IMG/VR virus record: IMGVR_UViG_3300020437_000333
Location: 1 to 21,662 of that record
DNA: 21,662 bases
From: a virus
Direction: 5' to 3' (one strand)
In this document: one piece after another, positions 8,924-19,361 of the stretch
Layout: each line of letters starts with the position of its first letter
Position numbering within the stretch: position 1 is the first letter of the stretch
Position numbers and translations under genes: made by a program
Notes under the pieces: generated by a model
The model's input: the letters and a program-made list of their open reading frames with translations, nothing else
Databases searched by the model: none
Told to the model about the DNA's origin: nothing

Positions 8924-11211
8924 ATACAGAAATAAAAGTCATCAAATCAGATGGCAGTAAAGTCAGTATAGATTTAGACAAGATACATAAAATGGTTGAG
9001 AAGTCCTGTAGAAATATTACAGGTGTATCAGAGTCATTAGTAGAGATGAATAGTGGCCTACAGTTTTATGATGGCATTACAACACAAGAGATACAAAAGA
9101 TACTTGTTAAAAGTGCAAGTGACCTTATCAGTTTAGAATCACCAAACTATCAATTTGTGGCGGCCAGACTATTACTATTTGCAGTTCAGAAACAAGTATT
9201 CAATACGAAGTGGAAAGATGCAGAGATATACCCACCACTCAAAGATATCGTAGAAAGAAATGTAGAGAAAGGTTTGTATACAGAAGATTTACTTAATGAT
9301 TATACAGATAAAGAATATGAAAAATTAAATAGTTATCTAAGACATAGTAGAGACTATGAATTTACATACGCAGGTCTACAACAAGTAGTAGATAAGTATC
9401 TCATTCAAGATAGGTCAACAGGCACATTGTTTGAGACACCACAGTTCATGTATATGTTAATTGCAATGACACTGTTTAGAAACTACGATAAAGATAAGAG
9501 ATTATCTTACATACAAAAATACTACAACGCAACATCGACATTCAAGATAAACATACCTACGCCTATCATGGCAGGTGTGAGAACACCACTAAAACAGTTT
9601 GCGAGTTGTGTTTTAGTAGATAGTGATGATACATTAGATTCACTATTCGCCAGTGATATGGCGATTGGTCGATATGTCGCCCAAAGGGCAGGCATTGGTA
9701 TCAACGCAGGAAGAGTTAGAGGTCTTGGTGCAAAGATAAGAGGTGGTGAAGTGCAACACACAGGTGTTATACCATTCTTAAAGAAGTTCGAGTCAACAGT
9801 AAGATGTTGCACTCAGAATGGTGTAAGAGGGGGAAGTGCAACAGTTCATTTTCCTATCTGGCACCAAGAAATCGAAGACATTATTGTTCTAAAGAACAAC
9901 AAGGGAACAGAAGACAACAGAGTTAGAAAACTAGATTATAGTATTCAGTTATCAGAATTATTCTACAAGAGATTCTTAAACAATGAAGAGATAACTTTGT
10001 TTAGTCCTCATGATGTGCCTGGTTTATACGAGGCATTTGGCACCGATACATTTGATGAGATGTATGAGAAATATGAGAACGCATATTCTATCCCTAAGAA
10101 AAAGATTAGTGCAAGAGAACTAATTACAGATTTACTCAAAGAGAGGGCGGAGACTGGCAGAATCTATATCATGAATATAGACCATAGTAATACTCATAGT
10201 TCATTCTTAGACAAGGTGAACATGAGTAATCTATGTCAAGAGATTACATTACCTACAGACCCAATACAACATATTGATGACCATTCAGGTGAGATTGCAT
10301 TATGTATATTGAGTGCTGTGAATGTGGGTGTAGTCAAAGATGAAGAACTAGAAGAGATTTGTGACCTTGCAGTAAGAGGTTTAGAAGAGTTGATTGACTA
10401 TCAAGAGTATCCTGTATCTGCCGCCGAGATGTCTACTCGTGCAAGAAGAAGTTTAGGTATAGGGTATATTGGTCTTGCACATTATCTGGCGAAAAACAGA
10501 GTCAAATATAGTGACCAGAACGCCTGGAATCTCGTCCACGAGTTGACTGAGAAGTTTCAATACTATCTACTCAAATCAAGTAATGAACTCGCCAAAGAGA
10601 AAGGTGCGTGTGATTACTTTGATAGAACAAAGTATAGTCAAGGTATATTACCAATAGATACATACAAGAAAGATGTAGATGATATCGTAAAACCAAACTA
10701 CAACATGGATTGGGAAAAACTAAGGGCAGAGATTATGACCAATGGTTTGAGACACTCGACACTCACCGCACAAATGCCAAGTGAGTCATCTAGTGTATCA
10801 TCAAACGCAACAAATGGTATCGAACCACCAAGAGATTATTTGTCAGTTAAGAAGAGTAAGAAAGGAACACTGAAACAAATCGTGCCTCAATACTCACACT
10901 TGAAGAGTGCATACACCTTGTTATGGGATATGCCAGACAATACAGGTTATATCAATATTGTTTCAGTGATGCAGAAGTTTTTCGACCAAGGTATCAGTGG
11001 TAACTGGTCATACAATCCTGAGAACTATGATAATAATGAAGTGCCTGTATCAGTTATGGCGAAAGACTTACTGAATACATATAAGTATGGTTGGAAGACA
11101 TCATACTATCAGAACACTATGGATGGTAAAGTAGAAGATGTAATTCAAGAACCATTGCCACAAGACCCATTTGATGATGACGGAGAAGATTGCGATGCCT
11201 GTGCCATTTGA
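8920..11211 (+). CDS. nrdA: Ribonucleoside-diphosphate reductase class Ia, large subunit
   Basis: Reduces ribonucleoside diphosphates to deoxy forms for phage DNA synthesis, together with NrdB. The length (763 aa) is close to E. coli NrdA (761). An ATP-cone-like region occupies about residues 1-90, so allosteric control of activity is probable. The active-site residues fall at almost E. coli numbering: C230 (E. coli C225), N437, C439 and E441 in NLCQE, and C462. The Tyr pair of the radical pathway is seen in TSYYQNT near the C-terminus. The tail ends DCDACAI, giving the C-x-x-C pair (C758, C761) that glutaredoxin or thioredoxin re-reduces. The start overlaps the primase stop by 4 nt. It is followed directly by an oxygenase gene rather than nrdB. 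Confidence 0.97.
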   Translation: MNTEIKVIKSDGSKVSIDLDKIHKMVEKSCRNITGVSESLVEMNSGLQFYDGITTQEIQKILVKSASDLISLESPNYQFVAARLLLFAVQKQVFNTKWKDAEIYPPLKDIVERNVEKGLYTEDLLNDYTDKEYEKLNSYLRHSRDYEFTYAGLQQVVDKYLIQDRSTGTLFETPQFMYMLIAMTLFRNYDKDKRLSYIQKYYNATSTFKINIPTPIMAGVRTPLKQFASCVLVDSDDTLDSLFASDMAIGRYVAQRAGIGINAGRVRGLGAKIRGGEVQHTGVIPFLKKFESTVRCCTQNGVRGGSATVHFPIWHQEIEDIIVLKNNKGTEDNRVRKLDYSIQLSELFYKRFLNNEEITLFSPHDVPGLYEAFGTDTFDEMYEKYENAYSIPKKKISARELITDLLKERAETGRIYIMNIDHSNTHSSFLDKVNMSNLCQEITLPTDPIQHIDDHSGEIALCILSAVNVGVVKDEELEEICDLAVRGLEELIDYQEYPVSAAEMSTRARRSLGIGYIGLAHYLAKNRVKYSDQNAWNLVHELTEKFQYYLLKSSNELAKEKGACDYFDRTKYSQGILPIDTYKKDVDDIVKPNYNMDWEKLRAEIMTNGLRHSTLTAQMPSESSSVSSNATNGIEPPRDYLSVKKSKKGTLKQIVPQYSHLKSAYTLLWDMPDNTGYINIVSVMQKFFDQGISGNWSYNPENYDNNEVPVSVMAKDLLNTYKYGWKTSYYQNTMDGKVEDVIQEPLPQDPFDDDGEDCDACAI

Positions 11212-12115
11212 TGCAAAGACAATTGAATATTACATAACAGACGAAGGAAGAAAAGTTAGAGGCAGAACTAATCCTGAAACATGGAAACTTGTCAAAGATA
11301 GATATGTTGTTCTAAAAGATTTCTTACCAAAAGAAATCATAAGATTTGCAATGGACATATGGAAGGCAGATGAAGAGAATGGTGGTTTGTATACGAATCA
11401 AGAAGTAAAAGATATCACATACAAGAATCCTCAGTCATCAATAGGTAAATCTAAAGGTGGTTATTGCACACCATGGGGTGTTGCACTTCACGGTTTTATA
11501 CATAATAAACTTAAAGATTATATCGACTTAGATTTAAGAGAAACATACTCATATACTAGAAGATATGAAAGAGGTGCATATCTAGGCAGTCACACTGATA
11601 GACCATCATGTGAGATTAGTGCAACACTATGTTTAGATTATCAAACAGATGATAATAAACCGTGGAAGATATGGGTTAGAAATGATAAGAACTATGCGAA
11701 TGTCAGTGCAGAGACAGTAAAGAATGAATCGCAAGACTTAACTCAGAGAGAAAGATTAAAGAATAATTGTAAGTCTATATCACTTGAACCAGGAGATATT
11801 CTGTTGTATCAAGGACCAAATATACCACATTGGCGAGACTACTTATTAGGTGAGTATAGTTATCATCTATTTGTTCACTTCTTCAATGCAACATCTAAGA
11901 TGAATCAGATAGATGATTTCATAATAGGTCGTAATCATGATGTAGAAACGGCCCAAGAAAAATTTGCATTAGAATTAGATGGTCGCCCAAACAGATGGAC
12001 AAAAGAACAAACAAGTGAAGAGTTCTCGATATTTGATGATAACTATTATAAGTCTGAATATCAAGACATGGTAAACAATTATGATGATTGGAAATTAGTA
12101 GAGAAAAAGAAATGA
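11195..12115 (+). CDS. 2OG-Fe(II) oxygenase (prolyl 4-hydroxylase-like) between nrdA and nrdB
   Basis: I choose ATG 11195 because GGAG lies nine bases upstream; codons farther up (TTG 11171, ATG 11174/11177) lack one. The gene overlaps nrdA by 17 nt and nrdB by 4 nt. The 306-aa product has the jelly-roll signature: H133-T-D135 in GSHTDRPSCEISATLCLDY, a PGDILLYQGPNIPHWR strand pair with distal H212, and a following HLFVHF strand. These enzymes use O2 and 2-oxoglutarate to hydroxylate or demethylate proteins, nucleic acids or small molecules. T4-like cyanophages often encode prolyl-hydroxylase-like genes. The operon position suggests a link with nucleotide metabolism or joint timing only; the substrate is unknown. 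Confidence 0.85.
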   Translation: MPVPFDAKTIEYYITDEGRKVRGRTNPETWKLVKDRYVVLKDFLPKEIIRFAMDIWKADEENGGLYTNQEVKDITYKNPQSSIGKSKGGYCTPWGVALHGFIHNKLKDYIDLDLRETYSYTRRYERGAYLGSHTDRPSCEISATLCLDYQTDDNKPWKIWVRNDKNYANVSAETVKNESQDLTQRERLKNNCKSISLEPGDILLYQGPNIPHWRDYLLGEYSYHLFVHFFNATSKMNQIDDFIIGRNHDVETAQEKFALELDGRPNRWTKEQTSEEFSIFDDNYYKSEYQDMVNNYDDWKLVEKKK

Positions 12116-13209: not shown

Positions 13210-13424
13210 AAAAATGGTACCAAATATTATGGGGAAGTAGAGAAGAAAGAGAACTCGAACAGAAAGTTCGAAACTCAGATGGTTCACCTGACCCCGATGA
13301 ATTAAACATAGAAAACGCATATAAAACTAGATGGATATGGTATCACACAATACTAGGATTATTGATGTTGATGGCAAACATGATTATGTTGGCGATTTTC
13401 TTACTACTGGCAATTAAACTATGA
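13206..13424 (+). CDS. Small single-span membrane protein (72 aa)
   Basis: The ATG overlaps the nrdB stop by 4 nt and the stop overlaps the cytochrome start by 4 nt, so it is part of the same polycistronic unit. Residues 1-40 are charged and soluble (a helix with REERELEQKVR); residues about 44-70 form one long hydrophobic helix that begins with RWIWYHTILGLL and ends at the C-terminus. The tail-anchored layout places the soluble part in the cytoplasm. There are no cysteines or heme motif. Its position directly before a membrane-anchored cytochrome c raises the possibility of a physical partner, which is inference only. Confidence 0.7.
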   Translation: MKKWYQILWGSREERELEQKVRNSDGSPDPDELNIENAYKTRWIWYHTILGLLMLMANMIMLAIFLLLAIKL

Positions 13425-14513: not shown

Positions 14514-14837
14514 ATGGAAATATATTGCAAGAACGCACTATTACTTGAAAAGGCGGTAACATTTTCTAAGACATTAGGTATCGACCACCATAATGCGGTC
14601 ATAAACATCAAGAGATTACCGCCATCATTCTCACAAATGGGTATCATAGAACACCCACGAGTTCTTGGACAACGCACATATATCAACATATATGTAAGAC
14701 TCAACAAAGAAAGATACATTACACTGGCACACGAAATGGTGCATGCCAGACAGGTTTTAAACGGTGAACCTTTAGATGAAAACGAGGCGTATTTACTAGA
14801 AACAACCCTTGACAATGACCCCCAAAAAAGACTATAA
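14514..14837 (+). CDS. Minimal HExxH zinc metalloprotease-like protein (107 aa)
   Basis: H73-E74-M-V-H77 in ITLAHEMVHARQVLNG is a zinc-protease motif inside a hydrophobic helix. E91, in the following NEAY motif, could be the third zinc ligand, as in gluzincins, where a Glu lies some 14-25 residues after the motif. The N-terminal 70 residues look like a small alpha/beta domain with strands (AVINIKRLPP, TYINIYVRL). The size is far below classical metalloproteases but fits small phage and bacterial 'minigluzincin' or SprT-like proteins. A role in trimming a phage or host protein is inference; the substrate is unknown. There is no ribosome site; TATATT directly precedes the ATG. Confidence 0.65.
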   Translation: MEIYCKNALLLEKAVTFSKTLGIDHHNAVINIKRLPPSFSQMGIIEHPRVLGQRTYINIYVRLNKERYITLAHEMVHARQVLNGEPLDENEAYLLETTLDNDPQKRL

Positions 14838-14838
14838 T
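14809..14838 (+). promoter_or_regulatory. Consensus sigma70 promoter before the HAD gene
   Basis: TTGACA (14809-14814) and TATAAT (14833-14838) are both perfect consensus boxes, separated by 18 nt. The promoter lies over the end of the metalloprotease-like gene. Expected transcription start is at about 14845, coinciding with the ATG codons at 14845/14848. It would allow early expression independent of the upstream operon. Confidence 0.6.
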
Positions 14839-14844
14839 CCAACC

Positions 14845-15354
14845 ATGATGAAAGGAAAAATAAAAAGAATATTTATTGATATGGACGGTGTTCTTGCCGA
14901 CTTTCTAAGGGGTGTAGAAATGCCTCAGTATTTGGGTGAACCTTTGACTAACGATGCAGAGGGTCATACTACATACGATTTAAGAAAAGAAGAACTTACT
15001 AACAAAAGACTATTCGCAAACTTACCGCCTATGGTTGACATGTATGACTTACTTGCATATGTCAGACATTGTGAGACACCTTGGGAGATATTGACTGCCG
15101 CTGGTGAAGTCAACAGAGAGTTGGTTGTGTATGATAAGAACGAATGGATTAAGAGATATGTTGACCCTACTGTGCCGGTGACTTGCACATTTACAGGGAC
15201 ACAAAAGGCGGCATACGCCTATGAGGGTTCTGTTCTCATCGATGATAGACCAAAGAATATCGATGCATGGGAGAAGGCAGGTGGTATTGGTATCGTTCAC
15301 ACTAGTGCGAAGAATACTATCAATGTTCTAAAAGAACTCAGAAATAACAACTAA
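14845..15354 (+). CDS. HAD-family 5'(3')-deoxyribonucleotidase-like phosphatase
   Basis: The N-terminus shows the HAD motif I in RIFIDMDGVLADF: the first Asp (about residue 12) is the nucleophile and the second (14) the acid/base. Motif IV is LIDDRPKNIDAWEKAGG in the C-terminal third, with the Asp pair that binds Mg2+. Overall layout and the 169-aa length match the NT5C/YqfW-like nucleotidases common in phages. They dephosphorylate deoxynucleoside monophosphates, so this enzyme may balance nucleotide pools or recycle host DNA products with RNR. The frame is open upstream to a TTG at 14809, but those bases form the promoter, and ATG 14845 or 14848 is preferred. No ribosome site is visible. Substrate preference cannot be told from sequence. 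Confidence 0.82.
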   Translation: MMKGKIKRIFIDMDGVLADFLRGVEMPQYLGEPLTNDAEGHTTYDLRKEELTNKRLFANLPPMVDMYDLLAYVRHCETPWEILTAAGEVNRELVVYDKNEWIKRYVDPTVPVTCTFTGTQKAAYAYEGSVLIDDRPKNIDAWEKAGGIGIVHTSAKNTINVLKELRNNN

Positions 15355-15362
15355 ATATAATT

Positions 15363-15620
15363 ATGAACAAGTTAAAAAAATGGGTTAAGTATATCTACGA
15401 GTGGATAAAATCTCTATTCACTACTAGATATAGAGTGACCGTATCTTTCAACAGTGTTTATGGTGATGCAGACGATAGAACTTTTATCGCCAAGAAGATT
15501 ATAACTCAGAAAGAAAAACATTTAAAGTTCAGAGATGAAGATAATAGGATAATAGAATATAGAAGTTCAGGTGGTCTGAACTTTATTATAGAGGATTGGG
15601 ATGGCACCGAAGAGATTTGA
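15363..15620 (+). CDS. Conserved small T4-like phage protein (85 aa), unknown function
   Basis: The N-terminal 20 residues (MNKLKKWVKYIYEWIKSLF) form a basic, Trp-rich amphipathic helix that may attach to the membrane. A beta-rich part follows (RYRVTVSFNSVYGDADDRTFIAKKII, then a LKFRDEDNRIIEYRS hairpin). I associate this layout with a small protein frequent in marine T4-like phages. TATAAT (15356-15361) ends one base before the ATG, but no good -35 box is seen 17 nt upstream. The gene overlaps the 26-aa ORF at 15601 by 20 nt, and that ORF's ribosome site lies inside it. Confidence 0.65.
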   Translation: MNKLKKWVKYIYEWIKSLFTTRYRVTVSFNSVYGDADDRTFIAKKIITQKEKHLKFRDEDNRIIEYRSSGGLNFIIEDWDGTEEI

Positions 15621-15690: not shown

Positions 15691-16074
15691 ATGAATCAAT
15701 TTACAATGGGCCTATTAGTGGTCTTGGGTTTACTTACATTCTATTTGTATACTCAGAATCAAACATTGACTGAGAATAACATAAAATTAGAGGCGGCCGT
15801 TGAAGAACAACAGAAGACAATGGCAGTCATGAAAGAACAATATGAGAAACAAGGTAAGTCTCTCATGAATATGACTCGAAGAAACGCAGAGATAGAGGCA
15901 GAGAAGGCAGAATACTTAGAAATATTTTCAAGACACAATTTAGATAATCTTGCATTAAAGAAACCTGGTCTGATAGAGAACAGAATGAACAATGCAAGTG
16001 AACTAGTAATGGAGGGCATAGAGGGTGACACTAAAGAATTATATAATCTTACCAATCCTGATACTAACGACTAG
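15691..16074 (+). CDS. Inner-membrane spanin-like protein (i-spanin, Rz-type)
   Basis: One N-terminal membrane helix (residues 6-20) followed by a long coiled coil (about 25-80) that would lie in the periplasm: the Rz/i-spanin layout. The periplasmic tail contains KPGLIENRMN (91-100), which I recall from spanin-like genes of T4-like cyanophages. With the outer-membrane lipoprotein encoded next, it should fuse inner and outer membranes in the last step of lysis. GGGAG five bases upstream supports the start. The next gene begins inside this one in another frame, a typical Rz/Rz1 overlap. Length (127 aa) is in the usual range. The assignment rests on topology and context. Confidence 0.75.
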   Translation: MNQFTMGLLVVLGLLTFYLYTQNQTLTENNIKLEAAVEEQQKTMAVMKEQYEKQGKSLMNMTRRNAEIEAEKAEYLEIFSRHNLDNLALKKPGLIENRMNNASELVMEGIEGDTKELYNLTNPDTND

Positions 16075-16567
16075 TTGTTCGTTATTACCAAACAAAAAAA
16101 TACAAATAGATTCTAGACCTATTCAGATTGATATCATGCAACCTGATTTGCCTAGACCAGTTCAACTCACTGCACCAAAATGGTATGTTGTATCAGAGGC
16201 GGTGATTACAAATCCATGTAGACCATCAATATCATTTGACCCTAAAAAATTCAATGACGATGGCACAGAGAAACTTAAAAGACCAAAGGCGTGTGATTTA
16301 TCTGAGAGAGATAATCCAGATTGGCCTGAGGGTTATACATATCTCGATAGGTTCTTAGATGAGATGAAAGAACAAAATGCAGGTGAAATACTGTTTGTTG
16401 CAACTTCTATTGGTGACTACAAAGTCATGGCAGAAGATATGCAAGAGTTAAAGAGATACATCAAACAACTAGGAGAAGTTGTAATATATTATAGAAATGT
16501 AACCATGCCTGACGGAAGTGATGGAGTCGGTGTGGCAGTGAAAAAGAATGAAACCAATTCAGACTAG
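16025..16567 (+). CDS. Outer-membrane lipoprotein, o-spanin-like (Rz1-type)
   Basis: Starts with GTG at 16025; GGAGG nine bases upstream, inside the i-spanin gene, fixes this start. The first 18 residues are a lipoprotein signal peptide ending LTTSC, with C18 as the lipidated residue; Thr at -3 is not the usual Leu/Val. A proline-rich stretch follows (RPIQIDIMQPDLPRPVQLTAPKW), as in o-spanins. The remaining 120 residues form a larger domain with helices (YLDRFLDEMKEQ, VMAEDMQELKRYIKQL), unusual for the short Rz1 but, as far as I recall, common in marine T4-like phages. The two genes overlap by 50 nt. The end overlaps the first tandem oxygenase gene by 20 nt. Confidence 0.75.
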   Translation: MTLKNYIILPILILTTSCSLLPNKKIQIDSRPIQIDIMQPDLPRPVQLTAPKWYVVSEAVITNPCRPSISFDPKKFNDDGTEKLKRPKACDLSERDNPDWPEGYTYLDRFLDEMKEQNAGEILFVATSIGDYKVMAEDMQELKRYIKQLGEVVIYYRNVTMPDGSDGVGVAVKKNETNSD

Positions 16568-17291
16568 TAAACAGAATAATACATATCAACCCGCCAGAGG
16601 AGAATATCTTCAAGTCTTCCCTACTACTATATTCGAGGGTCAAGTAAATCTAAATCACTTAGATGTAGCACATCATTGTAGACAAATAGTAGGTTCATTA
16701 CCAAAGGGCGACCCACTAACAGAATACACCACATACTTTCATCCTGATGCAAGAGAAGAGACACACCAACAACCTTGGTATAATGACTTTGCGAATCAGA
16801 TGAAAGATACCTATGTTGAGTTTTGTAGAAGTCAATATAATATAGATTTTACAAATGTCAGTAGACATGACATACATTTCTTTGCATGGGTCAATGTGTA
16901 TAATGAACCACATGAACATGAATGTCATAATCATGTGAAGTCTAGACTATCAGGCACTTACTATGTATCAACAGATGATTCATCAGAACCAATCAAGTTT
17001 TGGAATCCTAATATGTCTGCATTACATAGTCAGTCAGGTAATGATGATGTGATACGACCACAAGACTCAAAGTATGAGTTTACAGGTCAACAACATACAT
17101 CATTCAATTTTTACCCACAAGATGGCAACTTTTTATTGTGGCCATCGTATCTAATGCACTCAGTACCACAGGGTCACCCACGAGAAAATGAATCTTATGA
17201 ACGCATAAGTATTTCTTTTAACTTACAACACGCCGAAGATTTAGAATCATATCATCACGGTACACCATTTGACTACGGAGTTCTTACATGA
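16548..17291 (+). CDS. Putative 2OG-Fe(II) oxygenase, PF13759-like (tandem array 1)
   Basis: A 247-aa jelly-roll protein. ECHNHVKSRLSGTYYV gives the metal motif H127-N-H129 and the SGxYY strand typical of the 2OG-FeII_Oxy_5 type (PF13759). A WPSYLMHSVPQG segment holds the distal H204, and ERISISFNLQ ends the core. A His replaces the Asp of the usual HxD triad, which from memory is usual for this type, so chemistry and cofactor should be tested. The ATG lies 20 nt inside the o-spanin gene; no strong ribosome site is seen, so coupling is likely. It overlaps the next oxygenase by 4 nt. The substrate is unknown. Confidence 0.78.
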   Translation: MKPIQTSKQNNTYQPARGEYLQVFPTTIFEGQVNLNHLDVAHHCRQIVGSLPKGDPLTEYTTYFHPDAREETHQQPWYNDFANQMKDTYVEFCRSQYNIDFTNVSRHDIHFFAWVNVYNEPHEHECHNHVKSRLSGTYYVSTDDSSEPIKFWNPNMSALHSQSGNDDVIRPQDSKYEFTGQQHTSFNFYPQDGNFLLWPSYLMHSVPQGHPRENESYERISISFNLQHAEDLESYHHGTPFDYGVLT

Positions 17292-18004
17292 ATCACATAG
17301 ATGATATCGAAAGAGTAATAGACTTAGACCAACTATACAAAATGAGAGGGTCATTTGACAATCACAAGTTTGATGGTTTCTGTTTGACCATAGATGATTT
17401 CTATGAAAACGCCGAAGACCTATATCAACATCTAATCAACAGACAATACCCACTATGGAAATACAATTCAGAATCTAACACACGCAATGGTATAGATTAC
17501 TTTGACTGTAGAATCGTAGACAAGGTTGGTCATCCTACTAGACTATATGAGAACGACCAACAGAGACTACTAAATTTATGCAGACGATACTTTTGGAAAG
17601 GTGACTACAATTGGTCACGCCTATATGAGTTCAACTGTTTTAAGACGGCAGAAGTATTCTCTAAAGATATGCAACACTATCCTCATATCGATAGTGCATT
17701 GAATACGCCTGACCATCTATCAACACTCAATATGTTAGTTTACATGGACAAACAAGAAGATGGTGGCACTGCAATATATGATGGTGAATGGATTACTAAC
17801 GATGAGAATATGGCATTGTTATATCCTGTAGAAGAGAGATTTAATCTCAGACAGGTCATACCTGCAAAGTTTAATCGATGTGTTGTATTTCCTGGCAACT
17901 GTATGCATGGTGCATATATCAATGACTATCATAGATACTTAGAAAACTGGAGATTTACGCAGGTAACTTTCTATCATCCACAAGGGGGCCATAATGCCAA
18001 TTAA
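17288..18004 (+). CDS. Putative 2OG-Fe(II) oxygenase-like, DUF6445-like (tandem array 2)
   Basis: Start overlaps the preceding stop by 4 nt; GGAG lies seven bases upstream. The 238-aa product has H133-I-D135 in HYPHIDSALN, a dominant beta strand with a GGTAIY turn, the distal H207 in FPGNCMHGAYI, and R222 in the last strand as the probable 2-oxoglutarate ligand. The complete triad plus Arg suggests an active iron enzyme. The N-terminal 100 residues are a helical cap unlike the other three genes (YENAEDLYQHLIN, LYEFNCFKTAEVF), so this is not a simple copy of its neighbours. It resembles the DUF6445 group as I recall it. Substrate unknown; it could act on protein, nucleotide or small metabolites. 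Confidence 0.72.
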   Translation: MNHIDDIERVIDLDQLYKMRGSFDNHKFDGFCLTIDDFYENAEDLYQHLINRQYPLWKYNSESNTRNGIDYFDCRIVDKVGHPTRLYENDQQRLLNLCRRYFWKGDYNWSRLYEFNCFKTAEVFSKDMQHYPHIDSALNTPDHLSTLNMLVYMDKQEDGGTAIYDGEWITNDENMALLYPVEERFNLRQVIPAKFNRCVVFPGNCMHGAYINDYHRYLENWRFTQVTFYHPQGGHNAN

Positions 18005-18704
18005 AATAGGTGGGTTTGCACAATCAAAGATGGATGGTGCAGAAGACCCAAACATGGAAGAAGTTTTATCAGTTGACTCTATCAATGGCACAGACCAATC
18101 AGAAGTTGTTGTAGACAAATATTCAGGTGAAGAGTTTGAGATAGAACGCAACAGTGATTTCATTACAATATTACCACACATAATTACGCCAGAGGGTTGT
18201 GAACATATCATAGAACAATTTATCAATTTGCCATTCAGTGAGTGTGAATATGCAGACTCACAGGTCACACCACCAAAAGAGATAGAAGACAGAAACTTAT
18301 CATACAAATATGAGGCAGACCATAACAAAGACCATGCGACTATCGCCGATGGTTCAAAAGAATACAATGCAGTATTAGATGTTATGGGTCATTTGATACC
18401 AGACCATCCTGACTTTAGAAGAATCACATATATGCAGATTGTTCACTATAAAGAAGATTCATTCTTCCCTTTTCATAGAGATGTTGCAGAAGATACAGAC
18501 TTTGGCACATGCATCATGCAACTCAACGATGGTTATCAAGGTGGTCAACTCAATGTGCAAGGTAATCTAATCGCAAAAGATATAGGAACAATTACATTTT
18601 TTAACAATTCAACCAAGATGTGGCATGGTGTTGAACCAATATATGAAGGTCAACGATTTGTTCTACTCATATGGTTTGGGAGAGAAGAACATGGCGGACA
18701 ATAG
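17994..18704 (+). CDS. 2OG-Fe(II) oxygenase, prolyl-4-hydroxylase-like (tandem array 3)
   Basis: AGGGGG five bases upstream fixes the start, 11 nt inside the preceding gene. The 236-aa product carries H161-R-D163 in FPFHRDVAED, a GYQGGQLNV strand, the distal H211 in KMWHGVEPI and R221 in GQRFVLLIWFG, the complete set of iron and 2-oxoglutarate residues of the P4H-like (PF13640-type) fold. The first 55 residues are acidic and apparently disordered. Neighbour on both sides is another oxygenase. No membrane segment or signal peptide. Like other phage members it might hydroxylate a host or phage protein, or oxidise a metabolite; the sequence does not show which. Confidence 0.82.
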   Translation: MPIKIGGFAQSKMDGAEDPNMEEVLSVDSINGTDQSEVVVDKYSGEEFEIERNSDFITILPHIITPEGCEHIIEQFINLPFSECEYADSQVTPPKEIEDRNLSYKYEADHNKDHATIADGSKEYNAVLDVMGHLIPDHPDFRRITYMQIVHYKEDSFFPFHRDVAEDTDFGTCIMQLNDGYQGGQLNVQGNLIAKDIGTITFFNNSTKMWHGVEPIYEGQRFVLLIWFGREEHGGQ

Positions 18705-19323
18705 AGAACAAGTAAAAGATAGACCAGAATTGCCATGGGACGATTCATTCGGTGACCATATAAGAATACTAGACAATGTATTAGACCATGCAATATGTGA
18801 TGATTGTATCGATATGTTTGATGATTTAGAATACAGAGGTCTATGTCATACAAGAAAAGATTTAGGTATGCACTTTGGTCAAAGGTCAGATACCGCAATC
18901 TACTGGACAGAAATGGATGCGATGGTGAATCGCCCTATGCAAGAGATAGGTGATTGGATTCACAATGATGTCATAGAGTCATGGCAGATAAAATATCCTA
19001 TAATAGATTCAGGTGTATATGCAGGTTTGTATAATGCACAAATGAAAATGCAGAAGACTAGACCAAGTGAGGGGTATCACAATTGGCACTTCGAAGGTGG
19101 TCACACTGCATATGATAGAACGAGTATACTTGCATGGATGATATACCTGAATGATGTAGAAGATGGTGGTGAAACAGAGTTCTTATATCAAGGTGTAAGA
19201 GTTCCGCCAGTAAAGGGTCGACTGATAGTATGGCCTGCTGGGTTTACACATGTGCATAGAGGTAACCCACCATTGAAAGAGACTAAGTATGCAATCACTG
19301 GTTGGATAAATTATGTTATGTAA
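18691..19323 (+). CDS. Putative 2OG-Fe(II) oxygenase with HxE motif (tandem array 4)
   Basis: GGGAGAG six bases before ATG 18691 supports this start; the frame is open farther up, but there it lies inside the preceding gene. The 210-aa product has H133-F-E135 in NWHFEGGH, then SILAWMIYLNDVEDGGETEFLYQG, a common strand pair of phage and cyanobacterial 2OG oxygenases, and FTHVHRGNPP with H187/H189 as distal ligand candidates. The usual Asp of HxD is Glu here. HxE is accepted as a facial-triad variant in this fold, so activity is plausible. The gene ends the tandem array; a 45-nt gap with a promoter follows. Confidence 0.82.
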   Translation: MADNREQVKDRPELPWDDSFGDHIRILDNVLDHAICDDCIDMFDDLEYRGLCHTRKDLGMHFGQRSDTAIYWTEMDAMVNRPMQEIGDWIHNDVIESWQIKYPIIDSGVYAGLYNAQMKMQKTRPSEGYHNWHFEGGHTAYDRTSILAWMIYLNDVEDGGETEFLYQGVRVPPVKGRLIVWPAGFTHVHRGNPPLKETKYAITGWINYVM

Positions 19324-19332
19324 AAAAAGTGG

Positions 19333-19361
19333 TTGAAAGAATGACATACATATATTATAAT
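19333..19361 (+). promoter_or_regulatory. Sigma70-like promoter before the 112-aa gene
   Basis: TTGAAA (19333-19338) and TATAAT (19356-19361) with a 17-nt spacer lie in the 45-nt gap after the oxygenase array. One mismatch in the -35 box. Expected transcription start is about 19368, directly before ATG 19369. The -10 region lies within an AT-rich palindrome (TATAATTATA). Confidence 0.55.

Follow-up and report, generated by a model that had tools for sequence, protein, structure and literature searches.

The window analysed here, a 21,662-base IMG/VR virus record taken at its full length, carries a tandem array of four distantly related Fe(II)/2-oxoglutarate (2OG)-dependent oxygenases, referred to as A to D, and we are highly confident of its anatomy, family assignment and conservation. 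Regarding their function, A−D could well be protein hydroxylases, C and D working in the manner of prolyl hydroxylases, a reading that we favor tentatively. The first-pass annotation had described four consecutive, overlapping oxygenase genes behind the spanins, and the ORF check, the profiles and the spanin matches (phrog_739, phrog_812) all agree with this picture: four plus-strand ORFs directly follow the spanin pair (Table 1). The Rz1 gene and A overlap by 20 bases, while the A/B, B/C and C/D overlaps amount to 4, 11 and 14 bases, respectively. D is taken to start at the ATG at 18691 rather than at the upstream ATG at 18625.

Table 1. Array genes, neighboring genes and promoter-like sites, with positions counted in the window.
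Feature	Position	Strand	Basis
E: probable fifth oxygenase between nrdA and nrdB, HTD...H	11195..12115	+	phrog_2954; invariant triad 53/53
sigma70-like promoter TTGACA-N18-TATAAT (12/12) before dNT	14809..14838	+	motif scan; conserved in relatives
5'(3')-deoxyribonucleotidase-like gene (dNT), first gene of unit	14845..15354	+	phrog_2643 E 4e-35; start placed from the promoter
conserved 85-aa protein	15363..15620	+	order kept in relatives; no Pfam/PHROG match
i-spanin (Rz-like)	15691..16074	+	phrog_739 E 1e-11
o-spanin (Rz1-like), lipobox-like LTTSC near N-terminus	16025..16567	+	phrog_812 E 4e-9; sequence
A: TIGR02466/PF13759 2OG-Fe(II) oxygenase, HxH...H, R219	16548..17291	+	profiles; like 3bvc/2rg4 by sequence and fold
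B: DUF6445 oxygenase, HID...H, R222	17288..18004	+	PF20043 above cut-off; model matches 2OG oxygenases
C: PF13640 oxygenase, HRD...H, R221, intact in window	17994..18704	+	profile; matches to prolyl hydroxylase structures
D: PF13640/phrog_61 oxygenase, HFE...H...K, prolyl-4-hydroxylase-like C-terminal half	18691..19323	+	profiles
second promoter-like site (11/12), between D and next gene, start of next unit	19333..19361	+	motif scan; conserved in relatives

All three families proposed for profile searches (PF13640, PF13759 and DUF6445) were found above their curated cut-offs. A matches PF13759 (E 7e-18, 65.4 bits against a cut-off of 27) as well as TIGR02466 (66.8 bits, cut-off 62.5), B matches DUF6445/PF20043 (E 5e-10, 40.2 bits, cut-off 24), and both C (E 2e-10, 42 bits) and D (E 2e-11, 45 bits) exceed the PF13640 cut-off of 27, with D additionally matching phrog_61 (E 4e-43). 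The different metal motifs described for the four genes are likewise all present, namely H127-N-H129 in A, H133-I-D135 in B, H161-R-D163 in C as part of HxD...H, and H-F-E in D as part of HxE...H. Structures of A and B were predicted with AlphaFold from alignments of their own clade and both adopt oxygenase folds, while the fold assignment of C and D rests on profiles. The model of A (pLDDT 83) contains the double-stranded beta-helix and finds its best PDB matches in 3bvc (TM 0.78 by target length) and 2rg4, followed by other 2OG oxygenases. Its metal triad consists of three His residues (HxH...H) instead of the canonical HxD/E...H and is invariant in 53 sequences; as 3bvc and 2rg4 also have HxH, this motif is typical of the family. 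These two TIGR02466-like proteins of the Roseobacter group share sequence, fold and HxH with A, but they are bacterial and uncharacterised. The model of B, at a middling pLDDT of 70, shows a beta-helix oxygenase fold with 2OG oxygenases in the top rows of its matches (VIA Z up to 11.9), and H133, D135, H207 and R222 are present in 53/53 sequences. A sequence-based PDB search returned no relevant match for B, we found no literature on DUF6445, and a functionally characterised close relative was found neither for A nor for B. Bacterial homologues of B were discarded as a guide to function, as the genome scan yielded two matches only, on MAG contigs labelled Synechococcus and Sphingobacteriales that both carry the same phage genes.

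C and D show profile matches to prolyl 4-hydroxylases in the PDB (5hv0/3itq/5iax and the PBCV-1-type 5c5t), and C also to prolyl 3-hydroxylase 1. In D, the distal His and Lys align with the corresponding prolyl 4-hydroxylase residues. This likeness is one of sequence and of low identity, and it differs in detail, since D has HxE in place of HxD and C has Arg in place of Lys. An extra invariant His three residues before HFE leaves some doubt as to which His would serve as the first metal ligand of D. Over 40−53 distinct sequences, A (HxH...H, R), B (HxD...H, R) and E (HxD...H) show no variation in their metal residues, while D retains HxE...H in all full-length copies and the Lys in nearly all of them.

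The gene at 11195, which had been counted as a fifth member, is a probable oxygenase because HxD...H is kept in 53/53 copies and because of its PHROG matches (phrog_2954 and phrog_3531); neither a significant Pfam match nor, in a sequence-based search, a PDB match was obtained for it. The label 'ferrochelatase' of these two PHROGs looks wrong, given that C and D are matched by phrog_3531 as well. Overlapping nrdA on one side and nrdB on the other, E stays beside nrdB in nearly all relatives. The window furthermore encodes a phage c-type cytochrome at 13421−13864 (PF00034 E 5e-10, CAACH motif, N-terminal membrane segment), which is adjoined by a glutaredoxin gene.

Pairwise BLASTP among A−E reached a best E of 0.025, and profile-profile comparison gave weak matches in the core. 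Because pairwise similarity is not significant and profile similarity is weak and located in the core, A−D are old relatives rather than recent copies, which upholds, together with their different profiles, the initial description as separate families. A recent tandem duplication is excluded by the absence of significant pairwise similarity.

To follow the array in relatives, contigs from two scans were searched with profiles. The order E-nrdB-dNT-Rz-Rz1-A-B-C-D was found in about 50 distinct marine contigs, its full form being E, nrdB, a variable stretch, a small gene, dNT, the 85-aa gene, Rz, Rz1, A, B, C, D and two more genes, and the identical order in many independent contigs excludes chance or an assembly artefact. 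Neither of the two outcomes that would have contradicted the initial description was therefore seen, the array being conserved and the folds holding up in the models of A and B and in the profiles of C and D. The large relatives (114−153 kb) carry T4-like genes, e.g. those for terminase, portal, capsid, DNA polymerase and nrdA. Between the window and its relative L001, dN/dS amounts to 0.19 for A, 0.08 for B, 0.18 for C and 0.21 for D, and all array genes are under purifying selection. Among the distinct complete loci, four oxygenase genes per stretch are found in 24, five in five, three in five and two in two, and two contigs retain A and B alone.

This variation bears on the somewhat unlikely alternative that oxygenase genes simply collect at the site behind the spanins, each being an auxiliary gene in its own right, with a separate substrate and no place in a common pathway. 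The number of oxygenase genes ranging from 2 to 5 per array is in its favor, as is the position of D, which precedes the 85-aa gene in some relatives and follows inserts in others, and an extra 84073-type gene inserted in four loci (L002−L004 and L013). In L017 (9379−10005), identity to the window is 82% for D but 39−62% for A, B and C, a pattern that points to separate exchange, with D as the only gene recombined. However, A and B are adjacent in every contig running past A, with C next nearly always, even though the identity of A falls to about 36%; arbitrary gathering would be expected to shuffle the genes more. The stepwise pathway suggested at first finds no support in these loci, considering that D moves, extra oxygenases come and go, C loses ligands and A-B occurs alone in two contigs.

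One or more metal ligands of C are missing in five groups of loci (L022/L094, L092, L077/L081/L085, L074/L089 and L070/L083), whereas the remaining domain is kept. The metal-less C copies are not dead genes, since dN/dS between them is about 0.2 in three pairs and 0.46−0.49 in two close pairs, which would fit a structural or partner role. Ligand loss at C with retained selection is a new observation of this work. Comparing the loss of the C metal site by eye with the displacement of D gave no clean pattern.

The promoter-like sites suggest how the array is expressed. The site before dNT scores 10/12 or better in 36/46 distinct relatives, 34 of which reach 11 or 12, and the one before the gene after D in 20/26, versus about 5% of shuffles in both cases, while among relatives no promoter-like site at 10/12 or better precedes A, C or D and only 5/44 show one before B. 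Several relatives retain the dNT site although the upstream gene differs or stops short of it, so that coding constraint alone is insufficient as an explanation. With promoters before dNT and after D and none conserved before A−D, the array is most likely the distal part of one predicted unit comprising dNT, the 85-aa gene, Rz, Rz1, A, B, C and D. About 7 bases separate the −10 box from the ATG of dNT (window 14809−14847), and many relatives show similar spacing, which suggests that the message has no leader or almost none. The T4 late promoter motif ATAAATA was considered as well and dismissed, as it occurs below the expected number in the window and not at all near the array.

High numbers and tandem runs of such genes are already known, and the remark that single genes occur in T4-like marine phages therefore understates the matter. 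Cyanophages carry 1−5 2OG-Fe(II) oxygenase genes as a rule, and a count of 24 is reported for S-SCSM1 (PMC9602691, PMC3037559). By profiles built in this analysis, for which a few misses or over-calls are possible, we count 12 oxygenase-type genes in the near-complete relative G002, 8 in G009, 11 in G010 and 10 in G011, about 14 in pelagiphage HTVC008M including five in tandem, and none in C48C1, the closest deposited relative by terminase. The HTVC008M run (KC465899, 56808−59681) resembles the array in being five consecutive unlike 2OG-type genes of a marine T4-like phage with D-like and E-like members. In contrast to the array, it is encoded on the strand opposite to its neighbors, between fibre genes and the neck gene, has no spanins ahead and contains no B (DUF6445-type) match, and HTVC008M itself is distant (TerL 41%). 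A tryptophan halogenase, which adjoins a TIGR02466-type gene in HTVC008M, was considered as a partner and is absent from the five large relatives. T4-like cyanophages such as S-SCSM1 share the abundance of PF13640 and PF13759 genes, but B has no match in 50,697 phage records and the order behind the spanins was not seen in these phages. New to the collections searched are thus this set of genes, its place and the B family. By eye, G002 also contains genes resembling CsgF, CsgG and a CHASE2-type cyclase (L027, about 49500−56200), as in pelagimyophages.

We found no tested phage substrate for such oxygenases in the literature. If A−D act as protein hydroxylases, C and D would bind Fe(II) and 2OG, activate O2, hydroxylate one C-H and release succinate and CO2. 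B and C may act as a pair, in which a C that has lost its ligands would be the non-catalytic member. Candidate substrates are proline-rich repeat proteins of the same genomes that are encoded beside fibre and neck genes. They are built of units such as QEPNIRNAQ, QQPYPYIANA and HRSPFTYQ, with about 8−14% Pro, and occur in 5/5 large relatives with the array (G001, G002, G009, G010 and G011), three or four per genome and near fibre genes; those of G002 (L028−L030) lie at 92016−95625 and 103010−105700. Some of them look as if they end in a Hint (intein-like) domain. We nevertheless consider it unlikely that these proteins are the substrate. HTVC008M and C48C1 have no proline-rich repeat proteins, and HTVC008M, despite its D-like gene and its set of about 14 oxygenase genes, is repeat-free, hence the repeats are not required for oxygenase genes. 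As the repeat-carrying genomes form one clade, co-occurrence of repeats and array is not independent evidence and serves as a lead, not as a test. A separate conserved oxygenase pair adjoining the fibre genes is moreover better placed than the array to modify the repeats. The most far-reaching version, in which A-B-C(-D) would form one assembly with C as a recurrent pseudo-oxygenase partner and would hydroxylate the phage's proline-rich repeat proteins, is speculative and in our judgement quite improbable.

A role in the host envelope, whose small molecules, lipids or glycans would be hydroxylated to aid lysis or the exclusion of other phages, is a decidedly unlikely alternative. Judged by position, A−D would be co-transcribed with the spanins, and many fold neighbors of the B model are natural-product oxygenases. 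At 10−17% identity, however, these neighbors are uninformative on the substrate, C and D resemble protein hydroxylases, and no envelope-enzyme gene was seen within the unit.

More doubtful still is a modification of nucleic acids, for instance the stepwise modification of a DNA base that had been among the initial suggestions. The position of E between nrdA and nrdB and the deoxynucleotidase gene at the beginning of the unit would suit such a role, and a sub-threshold Tet_JBP match of C is seen in the window (E 0.09; PF12851 12.4 bits against a cut-off of 34.9), G010 and G009. A true Tet_JBP gene above the Pfam cut-off is present in G011 outside the array (G011:C1:89966−90364). On the other hand, C scores far better with PF13640, PF12851 (TET/JBP) is absent or sub-threshold in 5/6 records searched, and PF00303 (thymidylate synthase / dCMP hydroxymethylase type) is missing from all six, that is the five large relatives and HTVC008M, leaving DNA base modification with little support. 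Least probable appears a role proposed for cyanophages (PMC3037559), in which 2-oxoglutarate, iron or oxygen is drained or sensed so as to redirect the nitrogen metabolism of the host, as that proposal rests on cyanobacterial NtcA and would leave four unlike families with conserved distinct sequences and the ligand loss at C unexplained.

In marine T4-like phages, 2OG-Fe(II) oxygenases rank among the commonest auxiliary genes. The array provides a small testable system for them, in which four genes form a fixed set under a predicted common promoter, A and B make up a stable core and C offers natural active-site losses. For protein hydroxylation, the proline-rich repeat proteins offer a concrete first substrate to try, and should an A-B-C(-D) assembly indeed act on the repeats, the result would be a hydroxyproline-rich phage fibre.
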